From Chloroflexota bacterium (lineage in GTDB: Bacteria > Chloroflexota > Anaerolineae > UBA7937 > B3-Chlor), in assembly GCA_030613785.1 (NCBI GenBank), contig JAUWLF010000006.1:1-64000 (forward strand): 64,000 bases of DNA. The letters are read 5' to 3'. The notes under the pieces are model-generated. The model made no database searches and was not told the DNA's origin. It was given only the letters and a program-made list of their open reading frames with translations. Shown in pieces: positions 2,425 through 10,012 of this stretch. The translations under genes were made by a program, and so were the position numbers. Every line of letters begins with the position of its first letter. The first letter of the stretch is position 1.

Positions 2425-3639
2425 ATGACGATCTCTCGATTGGACCGCGCCCTTGAGCACTATGCCGCCAAGCTCACCGCGCTGGAAGAAGTTGCCGAGC
2501 AGCTATCACCTGAACAAGCCCTGGATGTCGTCATCGCTCGCCATGCGGTCCACACATCGCTGACCGACGAGACTCGGGATTCCACGAACAGTCTGATCAC
2601 CCTCGTCCAGTTGGATAGCCGCTTGAGGAAACAGGCTGACTCCATCGCCCAGGCGGTCGAACTGGCCGATTGGCGAGCTAGCTTGAATCCCCCCGAGGGA
2701 GCCTGGTGGTGGTTCTTTGAAACTCCCAGGCATCCGCATTGGTCGGACCGCCTTGACTGGCTGTGGAGTGTGCTGGCTGTTCTGTGCCTGACGGCTTCTC
2801 TCAGCTTGATGATAGACATTTCGTGGCGCTTCTTGAGCGAGGGCCCAGATGCGCTGGGGGCCTTTGCGGTCGTCGCTCAGGGCCTCTTGACTATGGTAGC
2901 GGCCGGGGGCGCACTGACCGGAGCTGGCCGGAAAGGGGTTGAGCGTATTCTCCAAGGTCTGAATATCCCCAGGCGTTCTTGGCAAGTGGTCAGAGTGGGT
3001 TTGGCGATGGTGCTCTTGCTGGGTCTCCTGGGGTTCCGACTTTCGTTGCCCCAGATCGCTGTGTCTTACAACAATCGCGGCCTCCAGAACTACCTTTCCG
3101 GCCGCTTAGATAGCGCTCAGTTCGACTACAGCCGTGCCCTAAAGCTGAACCCAGACTATGTGGAAGCTCACTACAACCTGGGACTACTGTATGAAGACCT
3201 GCAAGATTTCGACCGTGCCCGTGCCGAATACCAGATTGCCGTGCAGGGCGGCCTCGACGCAGCCTACAATAACCTGGCTCGGCTGCACATTCTGGGCGAG
3301 GACTATTCGGCTTCCGTTTCGTTGCTCTTGACAGGCCTGGAACTGGCCCAAGAGGACCAGGTGAAGTGCGACATGCTCAAGAACCTGGGGTGGGCGCGGC
3401 TGGGGCAAGCTCGGTACGGCGAGGCTGAGATCTACCTTCGGGCCGCCATCGAGCTAGCCACCGATGAGGCACCCGCTCACTGCTTGCTGGCGCAGGCACT
3501 AGATGGCCTGGGTGAGGCGGCGAGCGCGCTGCTTGAATGGGAGAACTGCCTGAGATTTGCCGATGCGCGCAATGCAGATGAGGATGCCTGGATTGGTCTA
3601 GCCCGCCAACGTATCGAAATGGAAGGAGAGGAGCGATGA
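2425..3639 (+). CDS. Membrane-anchored TPR protein, probable partner of the CHAT protein
   Basis: A 404-residue protein. Residues 1-80 are a helical cytoplasmic domain. A tryptophan-rich motif follows at 83-98 (WRxSLNPPE then three Trp). Three hydrophobic segments lie at about 111-130, 145-165 and 189-205. From 213 on there are tetratricopeptide repeats with the usual Y/A/G/L pattern (for example the NPDYVEAHYNLG helix pair). I recall this N-terminal WRxSLxPP-WWW region next to TPR or WD repeat proteins in Chloroflexota and cyanobacteria, but no function is established in my memory. The gene overlaps the next by four bases and heads a group with a FecR-like lipoprotein and a TPR-CHAT protein, so a scaffold role at the membrane is inferred. 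Confidence 0.75.
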   Translation: MTISRLDRALEHYAAKLTALEEVAEQLSPEQALDVVIARHAVHTSLTDETRDSTNSLITLVQLDSRLRKQADSIAQAVELADWRASLNPPEGAWWWFFETPRHPHWSDRLDWLWSVLAVLCLTASLSLMIDISWRFLSEGPDALGAFAVVAQGLLTMVAAGGALTGAGRKGVERILQGLNIPRRSWQVVRVGLAMVLLLGLLGFRLSLPQIAVSYNNRGLQNYLSGRLDSAQFDYSRALKLNPDYVEAHYNLGLLYEDLQDFDRARAEYQIAVQGGLDAAYNNLARLHILGEDYSASVSLLLTGLELAQEDQVKCDMLKNLGWARLGQARYGEAEIYLRAAIELATDEAPAHCLLAQALDGLGEAASALLEWENCLRFADARNADEDAWIGLARQRIEMEGEER

Positions 3640-4748
3640 AACGGAGAGTGGCTATTTCGATACTGCTAGCCCTGATCCTGGCAACCGCGGCTTGCGGGAG
3701 CGGCCCGGGTATTGAGCCAGCTGCGACCGTCCCCACTGACCCTGGGGTCAATCTACTGGTGGTGGCCGAGGGCGAAGTGGAGCTCAGGCGGGAGGCGTGG
3801 TCGGACTACCACCGCACGGCCTTCGGTGCGGTGCTCCATCGCGGCGATCTGCTGCGACCGGGGAGCGGCGCGAGCGCCGTGGTCCTCTGCGACGACGTGA
3901 GAACCTGGGTTGTGCCGTCTGGCGTCCCATCTGGCCTGACCAATGGCTGCCCGCCACCACCGGAACCAGTCCTGGTGCGCGGCGAAAGCCAGCTCGGCAG
4001 CACTCGCGGTGGGACTGATCCTGCTATTCCCTACATCATCAGCCCACGCAAGACCCGGTTGCTGGACGACCGCCCCCTGCTCTCTTGGAATGAAATCCCG
4101 GGCGCGTCCAGCTACGCCGTGCAGGTAAAAGACACAAACACAGGCCAGATCATTTGGGAGACGATGGTGGCGGGGTCTGGTCTCCCTTATCCGGGAGAGC
4201 CGCCCCTGGAATCTGGAGTTACCTATTTGCTGATTGTCGAGGCCGACAACGGTAGGTCGTCCCAGGATGAAGGCGTGCCTGGACTGGGGTTCAGCCTGCT
4301 GGATGAAGGTGATGCCCAGCGCGTGCGGGCCGCCGCTGCGCAGGTCGGCGGGCTACAACTGCGTGACGAGGCGAAAGCCCTTGCCCTGGCTCAAATCTAC
4401 ACCGCTCACGGCGTCATCGCCGAGGCGATGGGGACGCTGGAACCTCTGGCCCAGGCTGGAAGCCGAGCAGGCGCCGTTTATCGCACGTTGGGCGATCTCT
4501 ACCAGCACGTTGGACTGAGCCTTGACGCCGAGGCCCGGTACTTGACGGCAGTCGAACTCGCGGAAGCCGCCGAAGATGTGGAAGGGGAGGCGGCGGCACA
4601 GGCCGAACTGGGGGAGGTCTACGCCACGCTGGGGAACGTGGACCAGGCAGTACGCTGGTTGGAGGACGCGCGGACCGGGTATGAGGCCTTGGGCGATGCC
4701 CAGCGCGCGAGCGAGCTCGCAGAGCGCGTAGAGGCATTGCACCCTTAG
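3636..4748 (+). CDS. Lipoprotein with FecR-like and TPR domains
   Basis: The 370-residue product starts with a lipoprotein signal peptide, with the probable lipidated Cys at position 20 (preceded by Thr-Ala-Ala, an imperfect lipobox). Residues 35-95 resemble a FecR-type beta domain (GEVEL, then a hydrophobic strand and GDLLRPG). Residues 130-220 form a fibronectin-like segment of the type SPRKT, RPLLSW, AVQV, which often accompanies such lipoproteins. The remainder is helical and TPR-like. The ATGA overlap with the gene before it and an 18-base gap to the CHAT gene make one operon. It should sit on the outer face of the membrane, where it could bind the TPR part of the CHAT protein. No enzymatic motif is seen. 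Confidence 0.72.
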   Translation: MKRRVAISILLALILATAACGSGPGIEPAATVPTDPGVNLLVVAEGEVELRREAWSDYHRTAFGAVLHRGDLLRPGSGASAVVLCDDVRTWVVPSGVPSGLTNGCPPPPEPVLVRGESQLGSTRGGTDPAIPYIISPRKTRLLDDRPLLSWNEIPGASSYAVQVKDTNTGQIIWETMVAGSGLPYPGEPPLESGVTYLLIVEADNGRSSQDEGVPGLGFSLLDEGDAQRVRAAAAQVGGLQLRDEAKALALAQIYTAHGVIAEAMGTLEPLAQAGSRAGAVYRTLGDLYQHVGLSLDAEARYLTAVELAEAAEDVEGEAAAQAELGEVYATLGNVDQAVRWLEDARTGYEALGDAQRASELAERVEALHP

Positions 4749-4765
4749 ACGGGAATGAGGCGAGC

Positions 4766-7700
4766 ATGCAAAGGTCGTATCTGAATTGGATAGGCGCCTG
4801 TCTACTGATAGCGGCGGTGGGTCTGGCTACACTCCCTGCCGAAGTCGTCGCTGCGCCAGCGATCCAAGATGGCCTGCAGGAACAGGCTGATACCCTCTAT
4901 GAGGAAGGCGTTGCCCTTTGTTATCAAGGAGACTATCAGGGAGCACTTGACAAATTCAGAGTTGCCCTGGTCATATATCAGAACATTGGCGACCGGGCTG
5001 GCGAAGGAGTCGCGCTTAACGACATTGGGAGTGTCTACCACGAGCTGGGGCAATACGAGCAAGCGCTGGACTATCTCCAGGAGGCACTGGGTATCTTCCA
5101 GGAAATCGGCGAGCGGTACGAGGAGGCCAACACACTCGACAACATTGGCACGGTCCACTACATGCTCTGGCATTACGACCAGGCCCTGGAGTACTACGAG
5201 CAGGCGTTGGCCGTCTTTCGGGAGATCGGCGACCGGGTCGAGGAAGGGAATACACTGCACGATATCGGGGCGGTCTACGGGTCCATGGCGCAACACGAGC
5301 AGGCCGTGGACTATCTCCAGCAGGCGCTGCGCATCTTCCAGGAGATCGGCGACCAACCGGGTGAAGGGCGCACTCTCCACCGCATCGGGTCCATCCTGCA
5401 CGGCTTGGGCCCAGACGAGCAGGCGCTGCAGTACTACGAGCAGGCGTTGGCTATCTTTCGAGACATCGGCGACCGAGAGTGGCAAGTGACGACGCTCGAG
5501 GACATCGCTTGGGTTCACGAGTATGGCGCTCGGTACGAGCAGGCGGTGGACTACTATCGCCAGGCGCTCGCCATTGCGGAGGAGACGGGCGACCAGTGGA
5601 GCGAAGGGAAATTGCTGCGATGCGTCGGATCCGTCTACCGAGACTCTGGACGACACGAACAGGCTCTGGAGTACTACCACCAGGCGCTGGCTGCGTATCA
5701 GGAGATGGGCGACCCATTATGGGAAGGGACTGCCCTCCAGGACATAGCTGAGGTCTACGAAGATCTGGGGCAATTTCAGAACGCACTGGACTACTACCAG
5801 CAGGAGCTGGCCATCGCCCAGGAGACGGAGGAGCGATTCTGGGAAGGGAAGACCCTACTTTTGATCGGGCTCCTCTACTACCGCCAGGGGCAGCATCAGG
5901 AGGCGCTGGAATACTACGAGCAGTCGGTCTCCGTCTTTCGGGCAACTGGCGATCGACAGTGGGAAGCGACGACGGCCACAAGCATTGCGCTGGCCCACGT
6001 AGCTGCAGGGCAATACCAGCAGGCGCTCGACTACTATCAGCAGGCCCTGGCAATCTCAGAGGAGATCGGTGATCGGGAAGGGGAAGCGACGGCACTGAGT
6101 GATGTCGGGGGGGTCTACGGGCACCTGGGGCAGTACCAAAAGGCACTAGAATACTACTACCAGGCACTGGTAGTACAGCGAGAAATCATCAACAGGTGGG
6201 GAGAGGCAACCACGCTTGGCGCAATCGGCGGCGCCTACCGGGATCTTGCGCAGTACGAGCGGGCGCTGGATCACTACCAGCAGGCGCTTGCGATCTTTCA
6301 GCAGACTCGCGACCGCCTTTGGGAGGGACTAACTCTCAAGGACATCGGGGCCACCTACCGGGATGGAGGACGGTGCGAGGAGGCGCTGGACTACTACCGG
6401 CAGGCGCTCACTGTTTTTCAAGACACTGGCGAGCGGGCTTTGGAAGGAAGCACCATAAGGGACATAGGGGCCACCTACGCCGACGTAGGGCAGTACGAGA
6501 GCGCCTTGGACTACTATCAACAGGCGCTGGCTATCGCTCGGGAGATGGGTGACTGGACCTCGGAAATAGTCGCGCTCGGCGACATCGGTCAGGTTCACCG
6601 GTCCCTGGGCCAGTATCCAGAGGGCCTGGAGTACTACCAGGAGCAGCTGGCTGTGGCCCGGGAAGCGGGCGCTGTGTGGGCGGAAGGTATGCCTCTGAAC
6701 AGCATGGGGGTCCTTCACGCCAGTCTGGGACAATACCATCAAGCACTGGACTACTGCCAGCAGGCGCTGGCCATCTTCCAAGAGATCGGCGATCGGGTGG
6801 GGGAAGGCATAACGCTGAGCAACATCGGGGAGACGTACCAACGCCAGGGCGAAGCTACCCAGGCCATCATCTTCTATCAGCAGGCAATTGATGTCAGTGA
6901 ATCCATTCAGAGCGAGATTAGGATCGAAGAACTGCAGGCCGCCTTTGCAGCTGAACAGGTACCGGTCTACGAACGCCTGATCGACTTACTGTGGAAGGAG
7001 GGTCGCTTCGAGGAGGCGCTCGAGTACGGCGAACGGGCGCGGGCACGCGCTTTCCTCGATCAATTGGCCGGCGGACGCGTAGACTTCCGCGCCGGGACCG
7101 AATCCACTCTGGTGCGTCAACAGCAGCGACTTAGAGCTCTAATCGCTGCGGAGCGCGCCTACTTGGGCATCCTCGAAAACCGTCCCCGCGATGAATGGGA
7201 CACCGAGGCCATTGCAGCCACGCAAGCTGATCTCGCTACTCTTGAATCAGACTATACAGACTTGCTCACCCAACTCAAACTCCAGAGCCCCGAAGCCGCC
7301 TCGCTCATCAGCGTAGACGTGGCCTCGCTGGCTGACATCCAGGCTTTGCTCGGCGCCGACACGACGCTGCTGGAGTACTTCGTCACCGAAGAGCGCACGC
7401 TGGTCTTCGTCATCACCCAAGACAAGTTCGACACGGTGGCCTTGGACGTGAGTGGTGATGCCTTGACGGATACGATCACTGGCTTCCGCGACTTCGCCAG
7501 CCTGGAGGACCCCCACCCGGCCAGCCTTCAACAACTACACTCCTGGCTAGTCGCTCCCATCGAATCTCATCTTACGACCTCGATGGTGGGAATCGTCGCC
7601 CACGGCGTGCTCCACTATCTGCCCTTTGCCGCCCTGACCGACGGCGAACGTTATCTGAGTGACGACTACGTGCTCTTCACCCTCCCCAGCGCCAGCGTGC

Positions 7701-8458
7701 TGACCTTCATCCAAGAGAAACGCAAGCCCGGTGCTGACACCCTGCTGGCCCTCGGCAACCCGACCATTGCCGAACCGCTGCCCGTCTTGCACTTTGCCCA
7801 GCAGGAAGCGGAAGGCATCGCAGAGCTATACGGAACTCAGGCGCTCGTGGGCGCGGATGCTGCCGAAAGTGCCGTCTGGTCACGAGCCGGAAACGCTCGT
7901 ATTGTGCACTTGGCGGCCCATGGCGCCTACAACGCCTACAATCCCTTATTCAGCGCAATATATCTGGCGGGAGATGCCGAGAACGATGGCCGCCTGGAAG
8001 TTCACGAAATTTACGGGCTCGATTTGACAGCGGCCACGGATTTGGTGGTGCTCAGCGCCTGCCAGACCCAGATGGGCGAGGTAAGTGCGGGGGATGAAGT
8101 TGTCGGGCTGAGCCGGGCCTTCCTCTACGCCGGGACGCCGAGCGTGATTGCCAGCTTGTGGAACGTGGATGACGAAGCGACGGCATTACTGATGGAGCGG
8201 TTCTACGCCCATCTTCGGGCCGGGCTGAGCAAGGGGGAGGCGCTACGTCAGGCGCAGATTGACGTCCGGGACGAGTATCCCCACCCCTACTACTGGGCTG
8301 CCTTCGTGTTGACGGGGGATGCGGGAGACGTAACCGGGAACGTGGCTCCGGAGCCAACACCGGGTGGTGGCGGACTATGCTGGGGTGCTGCCTTGCCCGT
8401 GGGGTTAGTGCTGGTGGCTGGGATTCACCGCAGGCGCACCCTTCGCAAGACAAGATGA
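4766..8458 (+). CDS. Secreted/membrane-tethered TPR-CHAT putative peptidase
   Basis: A 1230-residue protein with, in order: a signal peptide (residues 1-31, ending near VVAAPA), 17 tandem 40-residue TPR units (about 40-720), a helical linker (720-880), and a C-terminal CHAT caspase-like domain (about 900-1190). The expected catalytic dyad is present: His1052 in the HLAAHG motif and Cys1099 in LSACQT, followed by the conserved GLSRAFLYAG and SLWNVDDEAT strands. The last 35 residues hold a glycine run, a Cys, a hydrophobic helix and a terminal cluster of Arg/Lys, like a C-terminal sorting tail. CHAT proteases are related to separase and caspases. An export signal places this one outside the cytoplasm. 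Substrate unknown. It is the third gene of the operon starting at 2425. Confidence 0.88.
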   Translation: MQRSYLNWIGACLLIAAVGLATLPAEVVAAPAIQDGLQEQADTLYEEGVALCYQGDYQGALDKFRVALVIYQNIGDRAGEGVALNDIGSVYHELGQYEQALDYLQEALGIFQEIGERYEEANTLDNIGTVHYMLWHYDQALEYYEQALAVFREIGDRVEEGNTLHDIGAVYGSMAQHEQAVDYLQQALRIFQEIGDQPGEGRTLHRIGSILHGLGPDEQALQYYEQALAIFRDIGDREWQVTTLEDIAWVHEYGARYEQAVDYYRQALAIAEETGDQWSEGKLLRCVGSVYRDSGRHEQALEYYHQALAAYQEMGDPLWEGTALQDIAEVYEDLGQFQNALDYYQQELAIAQETEERFWEGKTLLLIGLLYYRQGQHQEALEYYEQSVSVFRATGDRQWEATTATSIALAHVAAGQYQQALDYYQQALAISEEIGDREGEATALSDVGGVYGHLGQYQKALEYYYQALVVQREIINRWGEATTLGAIGGAYRDLAQYERALDHYQQALAIFQQTRDRLWEGLTLKDIGATYRDGGRCEEALDYYRQALTVFQDTGERALEGSTIRDIGATYADVGQYESALDYYQQALAIAREMGDWTSEIVALGDIGQVHRSLGQYPEGLEYYQEQLAVAREAGAVWAEGMPLNSMGVLHASLGQYHQALDYCQQALAIFQEIGDRVGEGITLSNIGETYQRQGEATQAIIFYQQAIDVSESIQSEIRIEELQAAFAAEQVPVYERLIDLLWKEGRFEEALEYGERARARAFLDQLAGGRVDFRAGTESTLVRQQQRLRALIAAERAYLGILENRPRDEWDTEAIAATQADLATLESDYTDLLTQLKLQSPEAASLISVDVASLADIQALLGADTTLLEYFVTEERTLVFVITQDKFDTVALDVSGDALTDTITGFRDFASLEDPHPASLQQLHSWLVAPIESHLTTSMVGIVAHGVLHYLPFAALTDGERYLSDDYVLFTLPSASVLTFIQEKRKPGADTLLALGNPTIAEPLPVLHFAQQEAEGIAELYGTQALVGADAAESAVWSRAGNARIVHLAAHGAYNAYNPLFSAIYLAGDAENDGRLEVHEIYGLDLTAATDLVVLSACQTQMGEVSAGDEVVGLSRAFLYAGTPSVIASLWNVDDEATALLMERFYAHLRAGLSKGEALRQAQIDVRDEYPHPYYWAAFVLTGDAGDVTGNVAPEPTPGGGGLCWGAALPVGLVLVAGIHRRRTLRKTR
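4886..6905 (+). repeat. 17 tandem 120-base coding repeats (TPR units)
   Basis: The DNA repeats with a 120-base period inside the CHAT gene. Each unit encodes 40 residues built around ALxYYxQALxIFxEIGDR, then an acidic linker, then IGxVYxxLGQ. I count 17 units from the protein sequence. Neighbouring units are similar enough at DNA level (recurrent blocks such as ggactacta followed by caggcgctgg) that copy number could change by recombination. Confidence 0.85.
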
Positions 8459-8477
8459 TGAAGAGTTCGGCGGCAGT

Positions 8478-8506
8478 TCGACATCGTTGGCAAGAACGGG
8501 CATAAT
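8478..8506 (+). promoter_or_regulatory. Promoter upstream of the secreted lectin-fold protein
   Basis: TCGACA at 8478-8483 (five of six matches to the -35 consensus) and CATAAT at 8501-8506 (five of six to the -10) are 17 bases apart. Transcription would start near 8513, giving a 40-base leader. This suggests the gene at 8555 can be expressed independently of the CHAT operon. Confidence 0.45.
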
Positions 8507-8554
8507 CAGCAGGTGTAGTGGCATACATCAGACAACAAGGAAGGACTAATCACA

Positions 8555-10012
8555 ATGAGCATCCGGAGATATTGTATAGGGGCTGTGGTCTTCTTGGCCC
8601 TTCTGTTGCTGACACAGTTGGTCACCTCACCGGCCCAGGCGCAAGAGAGCAATCCTGAAGGGTTAGTCTTCGACTGCCTAACGGATGCGGGCTACGACGT
8701 GATAGATGTCTATGGCGACGAGGATGCGGCCATGGTGTTGATGGAGATTGTGTCGGATGAATGGGATGAGGAGCTGCGGACCCAGATAGTCTGGGGCTGG
8801 TACTGTCTCTATCCTGCCTATGAGGACCCAGAGGTGTTGGTAACAGCCCTCGAATATGAAGCCCGGTATCTCCTGACCTTCTTCGTCGACAGGGGTGATT
8901 TCGGGGCCTGGCTGGACGGGGAGATGAGCGATAGCGAGTTCGTCTCAGCGTACACCTATGCGGTCTATGATGCTCAGATCGGAGACTGGATCAGCGAGAC
9001 TGACTTCATCCATATCTACTTCCCCGGGGCGGAGCCCGTCCTAGAGGAGGAGGGGTTGATTCCCAGAGTCGGCCAGCAGCCCGCGGAGCCAGCTTTCTCC
9101 GATGACTTCAGCCACGACGACAGCGGCTTAACGGCAGAAGAGGAAGATAACCGATACGACCTTGGTTATGTGAACGGGGAGTACCACATCAGTGTACTGG
9201 TGGAAAGCTTGGTCGTCTGGTCAGCCTACCCCGACATGGAGTTCGACGACTTCGCCGTTCAGGTCCAGGCTCGCCTGGTGGGAGGCTCCAGACAGGGGGA
9301 TTGCGGTCTGCTCATCCGCGTGGAACCGGATAACCACGAATTCTACCTCTTCGGCATCACCGCCGATGGCTACTACCAAATCTACAAGCGCTCAAGCGAC
9401 GGCTGGACCGAGCTTGTCGGCTGGAAGTGGTCGCGTGAGATCAACGGTGACGGGGAGTGGGACCTGCTGCGGGTCGAGGCTAGTGGCTCTACGATGTCCT
9501 TCCTGGTCAATGGTGAGCCCCTGGCTACAGTGGATGATGACTCCTTCAGCGCTGGTACGATAGCTCTCTACGCGCAGAATTACCAAGATTCGCACCTTCA
9601 TGTCGCCTTCGATAACCTGACCGTCTGGACCGAGGAGGCCCCTTCTGATGTGCGGACGGGGCCGGCCACCGGAGAGCGAGCCTTCGGCCCTATCACCTGG
9701 TACCGGTATCTGGGTGAGGACGGGGAGTGGCAAGACCCTGTCACCGAATATCCTGCTGGAGCCACGGTGCTCACCGCCGTCTGGGATTACGAGAATATGG
9801 AGGACGGGCTCAAGTGGGGCGACGCGTGGTTGTATGAGGGTGATGTTGTGCTTGATTCGAGAGATGAGTACGAGTGGGCAGGAGGGCAGACCGGAAGCGA
9901 GGCAAGCTGGATCTATTACGGGGGCGGCACCCCGCTGCCATCTGGCGAGTATGAGGTGAGGTTGTACATAGAGGGCGAACTCATGCAAAGCGCCAGCACC
10001 TGGGTCCGGTAG
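8555..10012 (+). CDS. Secreted protein with a concanavalin-like (LamG/DUF1080-type) domain
   Basis: The 485-residue product has a clear signal peptide, with cleavage predicted after Ala29 (SPAQA then QE). Residues 30-165 are acidic and of unknown fold. Residues about 185-365 carry the pattern of a jelly-roll carbohydrate-binding or glycoside-associated domain: FSDDF at the start, GxCGLLIRVEPDNHEFYLFGI, GEWDLLRVEASGSTMSFLVNG and a closing FDNLTVW. The C-terminal 110 residues look like a second beta domain. There are no recognisable catalytic residues. It follows the CHAT gene by 96 bases in the same direction but has its own promoter candidate. Envelope or extracellular binding function is inferred. 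Confidence 0.7.
   Translation: MSIRRYCIGAVVFLALLLLTQLVTSPAQAQESNPEGLVFDCLTDAGYDVIDVYGDEDAAMVLMEIVSDEWDEELRTQIVWGWYCLYPAYEDPEVLVTALEYEARYLLTFFVDRGDFGAWLDGEMSDSEFVSAYTYAVYDAQIGDWISETDFIHIYFPGAEPVLEEEGLIPRVGQQPAEPAFSDDFSHDDSGLTAEEEDNRYDLGYVNGEYHISVLVESLVVWSAYPDMEFDDFAVQVQARLVGGSRQGDCGLLIRVEPDNHEFYLFGITADGYYQIYKRSSDGWTELVGWKWSREINGDGEWDLLRVEASGSTMSFLVNGEPLATVDDDSFSAGTIALYAQNYQDSHLHVAFDNLTVWTEEAPSDVRTGPATGERAFGPITWYRYLGEDGEWQDPVTEYPAGATVLTAVWDYENMEDGLKWGDAWLYEGDVVLDSRDEYEWAGGQTGSEASWIYYGGGTPLPSGEYEVRLYIEGELMQSASTWVR

Follow-up and report, generated by a model that had tools for sequence, protein, structure and literature searches.

Three adjacent genes of a Chloroflexota bacterium, located in the window (the whole 64,000-nucleotide stretch of DNA analysed here), constitute a real, conserved module. 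Computation established the genes and their domains, a conserved His-Cys dyad, a conserved neighbourhood and gene fusions. The trio encodes a receptor-like membrane protein (ORF1), a lipoprotein (ORF2) and an exported TPR-CHAT protein, and looks like an outside-facing protease signalling or conflict module that has so far gone undescribed. We consider it somewhat more probable than otherwise, at roughly 55%, that this is a caspase-like protease module located outside the cytoplasm and equipped with a transmembrane relay of its own, the CHAT protein being coupled via ORF2 to ORF1. Openly licensed papers in PMC, searched for CHAT with FecR, DUF928, TPS or hemagglutinin, contained no description of the trio.

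The ORF listing of the window bore out the placement of the three genes in an earlier note on this DNA (Table 1). They are tightly packed, with an overlap of 4 nt between ORF1 and ORF2 and a gap of 17 nt between ORF2 and the CHAT gene. The interval in that note, however, extended to position 10012 and spanned a fourth gene (8555-10012) that is not conserved with the trio. This gene encodes a signal peptide and a PF06439-like domain, and was rejected as a fourth partner after it failed to recur beside the trio at other loci. The trio is flanked in the window by isoprenoid, DUF350 and radical SAM HemN-like genes. PADLOC detected no complete anti-phage system at the locus, returning only generic TPR and weak matches.

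Table 1. Positions of the three genes and of features of the CHAT protein in the window.
Feature	Position	Strand	Basis
ORF1, receptor-like membrane protein, 404 aa	2425..3639	+	TPR matches
ORF2, lipoprotein, 370 aa	3636..4748	+	sequence, alignments, AlphaFold2
TPR-CHAT caspase-like predicted protease, exported, 1230 aa	4766..8458	+	PF12770 E=6.6e-70
Sec signal peptide of CHAT protein, residues 1 to about 30	4766..4855	+	sequence
TPR array, residues 54-693, sixteen 40-aa units	4925..6844	+	repeat HMM
CHAT domain, residues 919-1185	7520..8320	+	Pfam
Catalytic His1052 codon (predicted)	7919..7921	+	H in 40/40 aligned CHATs
Catalytic Cys1099 codon (predicted)	8060..8062	+	C in 40/40 aligned CHATs
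C-terminal tail: Gly/Pro linker, Cys, TM helix, Arg cluster (GGGGLCWGAALPVGLVLVAGIHRRR)	8345..8455	+	alignment

The CHAT domain (PF12770) of the third gene product scored 236 bits against a curated Pfam cut-off of 24, and 240.7 bits in the profile search of genomes. The His1052/Cys1099 dyad had been numbered correctly in the earlier note and proved invariant in the aligned homologues, the count at each position including only those CHATs with a letter at that column. The N-terminus of the protein, MQRSYLNWIGACLLIAAVGLATLPAEVVAA, is that of a typical signal peptide and, contrary to the loss in homologues that had been envisaged as a refutation, the signal peptide is retained among them, as is the dyad. 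The claim of 17 TPRs was also correct, as the repeat profile recognised a weaker 17th unit at residues 745-760 in addition to the sixteen regular ones. The units share a mean pairwise identity of 46%, and their number ranges from 6 to 20 across CHAT homologues. The orthologues at loci L033, L062 and L065 share the architecture of the window protein.

The earlier note had overlooked that the CHAT protein carries a Cys-TM-Arg anchor at its C-terminus. In an alignment of four orthologues, G, C, A, L and P residues of this tail are invariant. A search of four genomes yielded no second protein with the tail at E<0.1, and a general C-terminal sorting tag was thus ruled out, the tail being found in these genomes on CHAT proteins alone.

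ORF1 was confirmed as a tryptophan-motif TPR membrane protein. Its N-terminal helical domain ends in an AWWW motif, the WWW of which (residues 94-96) is invariant in the homologue alignment, and is followed by three hydrophobic segments or TM helices (about 108-130, 143-163 and 187-205) and by C-terminal TPRs predicted to lie outside. The mean number of K+R residues is 4.0 in the TM2-TM3 loop versus 1.2 in the TM1-TM2 loop, a positive-inside distribution which suggests that the N-terminal domain is cytoplasmic and the TPRs external. The AlphaFold2 model (pLDDT 80.5) retrieved generic TPR folds only in a structure search. Homologues occur at loci L033, L034, L058, L061, L062, L100 and L102, among others. 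In many cyanobacteria the cytoplasmic half of ORF1 is an intact Ser/Thr kinase; 13 non-WWW ORF1s carry intact HRD..N and DFG kinase motifs and a Zn ribbon, and these kinase-type proteins match the window ORF1 chiefly in the last TM helix and the TPRs. The presence of an intact cytoplasmic kinase in cyanobacterial ORF1 favours transmembrane signalling.

ORF2 carries a lipobox (ATAAC, Cys20), a beta domain with two conserved cysteines (residues 38-110), an Ig/FN3-like domain with the motif SPR.T.LL..RP..W (about 132-222) and a TPR domain (about 224-368). The lipobox and TPRs upheld part of its earlier description as a FecR-like/TPR lipoprotein; as to the FecR part, profile comparison pointed only to a possible likeness with the N-terminal half of FecR-type sequences, upstream strands included (probability 82, 48 columns). 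Pfam FecR (PF04773) was absent among the matches listed at E<1 for 18 homologues (best 25 of 39 families), and hhalign gave 0.4% against the core region of Pfam FecR. Membership of the FecR family was thus ruled out for the Pfam core, leaving at most a half-domain likeness. A remote profile-profile match tentatively linked the Ig and helical parts of ORF2 to DUF928 (PF06051; probability 92, 147 columns), where ORF1, used as a control, gave 0.1. All members fell below the DUF928 Pfam cut-off (L102, 12.2 versus 26 bits; best E 0.025 among members). The AlphaFold2 model of ORF2 (pLDDT 81.5) found its best Foldseek match in the Ig-TPR structure of MtxA (4z29, E=6.6e-5, TMt 0.68).

Loci were collected by ORF2 similarity, independently of CHAT, with a contig profile scan based on a five-row alignment. 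At 20/20 cyanobacterial loci tested, a CHAT gene lay within 2.8 kb of ORF2, as compared with 0.6 expected (log10P about -32), and since this adjacency beyond expectation was seen at loci found without recourse to CHAT, the trio is a real module. Six further Chloroflexota loci carry it, as do 16 of 146 cyanobacterial genomes, where named plasmids are among its locations. On the Nostoc cf. commune plasmid pANSO36D the matches were 2e-103 for ORF1, the scores of which are inflated by TPR similarity, 2e-75 for ORF2 and 1e-165 for CHAT. The partners of the three-gene set are thus conserved over two phyla, counter to the second ground for refutation named in the earlier note, a CHAT domain lacking both activity and conserved partners. 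Such genomes are rich in TPR proteins and CHATs, and unrelated TPR proteins could by coincidence adjoin one among many CHAT genes; however, the co-occurrence already refutes this reading, and with ORF1 similarity that is full-length and WWW-conserved across both phyla, and with single-frame ORF1-ORF2 fusions at three Chloroflexota loci (L035, L059 and L063), its probability is negligible. At L035, L036, L059 and L060, ORF1 and ORF2 are paired or fused but no CHAT gene adjoins them, so that the receptor half may serve other clients. In a tree of concatenated ORF1 and ORF2 the cyanobacterial WWW-type loci cluster together (local support 0.92), and a recent inter-phylum transfer is therefore not claimed.

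Of the complete CHAT ORFs at ORF2 loci, 32/38 have a signal-peptide-like start by a crude rule. Export of CHAT is supported, but it is not rare and is common in cyanobacteria generally: 10 of the 15 complete background CHATs from cyanobacteria and Chloroflexota also have a signal-peptide-like N-terminus, and the idea that an exported CHAT is exceptional was discarded. The novelty lies instead in the conserved set of receptor, lipoprotein and protease, and not in secretion alone. In many cyanobacteria, CHAT adjoins or is fused to a two-partner-secretion (TPS) domain, and in the TPS-CHAT fusions of L139 and L135 it is the TPS passenger, which places CHAT outside. We infer with good confidence the placement of all three proteins, the TPR surfaces of which would face outward, as suggested by the positive-inside topology of ORF1 together with both kinds of fusion, ORF1-ORF2 and TPS-CHAT. 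On several cyanobacterial plasmids, CHAT genes adjoin TpsA/TpsB genes, and it could be envisaged that CHAT is a maturation protease for surface or TPS exoproteins, with ORF1 and ORF2 as chaperone-like scaffolds, an assembly role that would suit TPR proteins. However, inspection by eye revealed no TPS gene beside the Chloroflexota loci examined, CHAT is itself the passenger in L135 and L139, and a scaffold is not expected to carry the active kinase domains of ORF1; this role is distinctly improbable.

In the relay that we favour, the CHAT protein would be exported by Sec and tethered by its C-terminal anchor on the outer side of the cytoplasmic membrane, sharing this compartment with the ORF2 lipoprotein. 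ORF1 would span the membrane three times, its N-terminal domain inside and its TPRs outside beside ORF2, and the three proteins would form a complex. A surface cue, sensed by TPR surfaces in the CHAT protein, in ORF1-ORF2 or in both, would unlock the His-Cys protease to cleave a surface substrate or a partner. ORF1 would then relay the event inward through a kinase in many cyanobacteria, or through the WWW helical domain in this genome, and the outcome could be adaptation, cell death or competition. Envelope surveillance, as suggested earlier, is a working hypothesis, and self-processing a conceivable alternative. Within the class the trio has a rare and patchy occurrence (ORF2 at E<1e-11 in about 10/396 genomes) and thus does not represent a core pathway of envelope stress.

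In other defence systems, CHAT domains have established roles as effectors. The exported CHAT could accordingly be an effector against neighbouring cells, or against phage at the surface, in conflict or kin recognition, its variable TPRs serving recognition and ORF1/ORF2 controlling or protecting. Its patchy distribution, its occurrence on plasmids, the varying number of TPR units and the STAND (GerE-NB-ARC/NACHT) ATPases and TPS exoproteins among its cyanobacterial neighbours are consistent with this. Nevertheless, no complete PADLOC system was matched, toxin-immunity logic is not visible, no STAND gene adjoins the trio in the window and the Chloroflexota CHAT protein appears anchored to its own membrane, so that we regard this explanation as rather unlikely. 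Only tentatively do we extend the favoured relay to a caspase-like protease cascade on the outside of the cell. In it, an exported TPR-CHAT, anchored to the membrane or surface and gated by its dedicated Ig-TPR partner, would signal via a receptor with three TM helices, of the WWW or the Ser/Thr-kinase type, and the system would serve Chloroflexota and Cyanobacteria in signalling between cells or between self and non-self. If the relay is true, the conserved set makes outside-in caspase-type signalling in bacteria testable, since named copies of the trio are available in Trichormus variabilis ATCC 29413 (CHAT AVA_RS26040, ORF2 AVA_RS26045, ORF1 AVA_RS26050) and in Leptolyngbya boryana IU 594 (MCP04_RS30230-30245). 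The set would also provide a functional context for two orphan families, that of ORF2 and DUF928, its possible remote relative.

To our knowledge, the CHAT proteases studied so far (Csx29, HetF, defence effectors) are regarded as intracellular or inner-membrane-associated. The DUF928 proteins of cyanobacteria are, like ORF2, exported, and are remotely matched by its Ig/TPR part; in Oscillatoria PCC 10802, an intact CHAT lies no more than 300 bp from 5/12 DUF928 copies. ORF2 nevertheless falls under the Pfam cut-off, and DUF928 proteins do not belong to the trio. The tail of the CHAT protein is tripartite, as in MYXO-CTERM/myxosortase systems (PMC11980579), with a Cys motif, TM helix and Arg cluster, but it has no NCBIfam match and is not shared by other proteins (four genomes, E<0.1). 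MtxA of Magnetospirillum, for which periplasmic signalling has been proposed, is encoded beside a CHASE2/adenylate cyclase-type receptor gene (PMC4439547). The ORF2 model resembles its Ig-like and TPR fold, and both are exported and encoded near a membrane receptor gene; however, identity is low (18%) and no CHAT protease is reported for MtxA. HetF of the filamentous Anabaena likewise combines CHAT, TPRs and one predicted TM segment and is membrane-associated, but its CHAT part occupies the N-terminus (aa 1-555), its demonstrated partner is FtsI of the divisome, and ORF1/ORF2-type partner genes are not described in the portion of the source drawn on here (PMC8406250). Csx29 of type III-E CRISPR (Craspase) has a comparable layout, its TPR array preceding a caspase-like CHAT domain that carries a His-Cys dyad, and is locally similar to the window protein (E=4e-10, residues 943-1151), which at 39 bits against a cut-off of 300 is not a member of NCBIfam Csx29. 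In contrast to Csx29, which is cytoplasmic and partnered by Cas7-11, the CHAT protein of the window carries a signal peptide and a C-terminal anchor, and has membrane and lipoprotein partners.

The three genes follow one another closely in the window: ORF1, encoding a receptor-like three-TM protein with an N-terminal WWW domain and TPRs, overlaps the lipoprotein gene ORF2 by 4 nt, and the end of ORF2 lies 17 nt from the start of the CHAT gene, all three positions being those given in the earlier note. The product of the CHAT gene, a TPR-CHAT caspase-like protease with a His1052/Cys1099 dyad, begins with a signal peptide and contains about 17 TPR units of 40 residues each, in agreement with the 17 claimed for it, a CHAT domain at residues 919-1185 (E=6.6e-70) and a C-terminal Cys-TM-Arg tail. 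The genome of the window contains only one further CHAT gene, on another contig, with a coiled-coil-like product devoid of a signal peptide. Directly past the CHAT gene, positions 8555-10012 encode a signal-peptide protein with a weak match to 3-keto-disaccharide hydrolase (PF06439), and no conservation of this gene alongside the trio was found.

Separate searches with ORF1 and ORF2, followed by inspection of neighbourhoods, were used to locate Chloroflexota loci. The same trio was found in L033, L034, L061, L062, L065 and L058, and a divergent form in L067; it is rare, and about 10 of the 396 genomes from the class have an ORF2 match at E<1e-11. The CHAT gene of L034 (L034:3264-7117), from a MAG, is split into two overlapping frames with its signal-peptide start retained, and represents either a pseudogene or a sequencing error. 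In L065, the WWW domain is replaced by a GPVHTGSGDINI segment in the protein at the ORF1 position (L065:7983-9041) as well as in a small neighbour (L065:14120-14485), and the two may have an adaptor region in common.

Coordinates of the trio, CHAT C-terminal tails and TPS-CHAT proteins (L, homologous loci in other genomes; TPS, two-partner secretion)
Feature	Location	Strand	Description
ORF1	window 2425-3639	+	
ORF2	window 3636-4748	+	
CHAT gene	window 4766-8458	+	
C-terminal tail	window 8345-8455		G-x-C-x-x-A-x-LP-TM-RRR, Chloroflexota CHAT protein
C-terminal tail	L033:5937-6044		as above
C-terminal tail	L062:583-675		as above
C-terminal tail	L065:14003-14101		as above
TPS-CHAT protein	L135:10328-17770		2480 aa; N-terminal TPS secretion domain (PF05860), C-terminal CHAT domain
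TPS-CHAT protein	L139:4073-8953		1626 aa; N-terminal TPS secretion domain (PF05860), C-terminal CHAT domain

The catalytic His and Cys were present in 40/40 aligned CHATs spanning the site. The CHAT protein had been proposed to be extracytoplasmic, with loss of the signal peptide in homologues named as the finding that would speak against it; by a crude rule, 32 of 38 CHAT ORFs that are complete and come from loci with ORF2 had a signal-peptide start, several of the failures being split genes or borderline starts. While this part of the proposal was borne out, export could not be upheld as a distinctive feature, since background CHATs of the same genomes are often exported as well (10/15 complete ORFs) and secretion by itself is thus unremarkable. 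The CHAT proteins of L135 and L139 start with a TPS secretion domain, which on sequence grounds makes their export to the cell surface probable. The tail of the Chloroflexota CHAT proteins is similar in layout to MYXO-CTERM, and a tail of this type was not found in other proteins of these Chloroflexota genomes.

ORF1 proteins have the membrane/TPR half in common but fall into two main kinds or more. In 21 loci, drawn from both phyla, this half is combined with the WWW helical domain, and in 13 cyanobacterial loci with a Zn ribbon and a Ser/Thr kinase whose HRD and DFG motifs are intact. In three Chloroflexota loci (L035, L059 and L063) ORF1 and ORF2 form a single open frame of 721-804 codons, implying one compartment for the ORF1 C-terminus and ORF2; given that ORF2 in its unfused form is a lipoprotein, an outside location is expected for the TPRs of ORF1. 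The charge distribution in ORF1 agrees with this orientation, mean K+R being 4.0 in the TM2-TM3 loop versus 1.2 in the TM1-TM2 loop. Taken together, the three proteins are consistent with a protease that faces outward and is coupled to a transmembrane receptor. The CHAT protein and ORF2 would be situated outside the membrane, and ORF1 would cross it, coupling the outside protease to the inside, where its kinase or WWW domain would lie; signalling, started by a putative surface cue and involving a putative substrate of the protease, would run inward.

The neighbourhood check suggested in the earlier note showed the three-gene set to recur not only in Chloroflexota but also in Cyanobacteria, where ORF2 was present in 16/146 genomes. 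At the 20 loci with known CHAT density, a CHAT gene was found within 2.8 kb of ORF2 in every case, against 0.6 expected as computed for 4 kb on each side. In L072, from Oscillatoria sp. PCC 10802, the ORF2 homologue is preceded by an ORF1-like gene and followed by a convergent CHAT gene. The gene order of Nostoc cf. commune SO-36 pANSO36D is that of the window, with ORF1 and ORF2 similar over their full length and the TPR and CHAT halves in separate frames. The main rival to a protease-receptor system is a role in conflict or kin recognition, which is favoured by the carriage of the set on plasmids (records from Nostoc, Trichormus, Leptolyngbya, Fischerella, Pseudanabaena and Nodularia), by the variable number of TPRs and by neighbouring STAND genes. 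Cyanobacterial loci are frequently extended by a gene for a STAND ATPase on the upstream side and by TPS genes on the downstream side.

ORF2 is probably a remote relative of DUF928, whose genes often adjoin CHAT genes and which may act as a partner for exported CHATs in general. Of the 12 DUF928 genes in Oscillatoria sp. PCC 10802, five (L114, L117, L122, L123 and L124) lie within 300 bp of an intact CHAT gene and two more adjoin CHAT fragments. A 1438-aa protein (L064:2352-6668) combines an ORF2-type domain with a Ser/Thr kinase, TCAD9 and WD40 repeats, and provides a further link of this domain to transmembrane kinases.

A description of the three-part set was not found in the open literature searched. 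TPR-CHAT proteases are already known, and exported caspase homologues were noted earlier by Asplund-Samuelsson 2012 (PMC3501461), who discussed their N-terminal TM segments or signal peptides and possible surface roles. In its AlphaFold2 model (pLDDT 81.5), ORF2 itself consists of a beta domain followed by an Ig/FN3-like domain and TPRs, and the closest solved fold to this model is that of MtxA, an exported Ig-TPR protein whose gene adjoins one of the CHASE2/adenylate cyclase type and for which periplasmic signalling has been proposed (PMC4439547).
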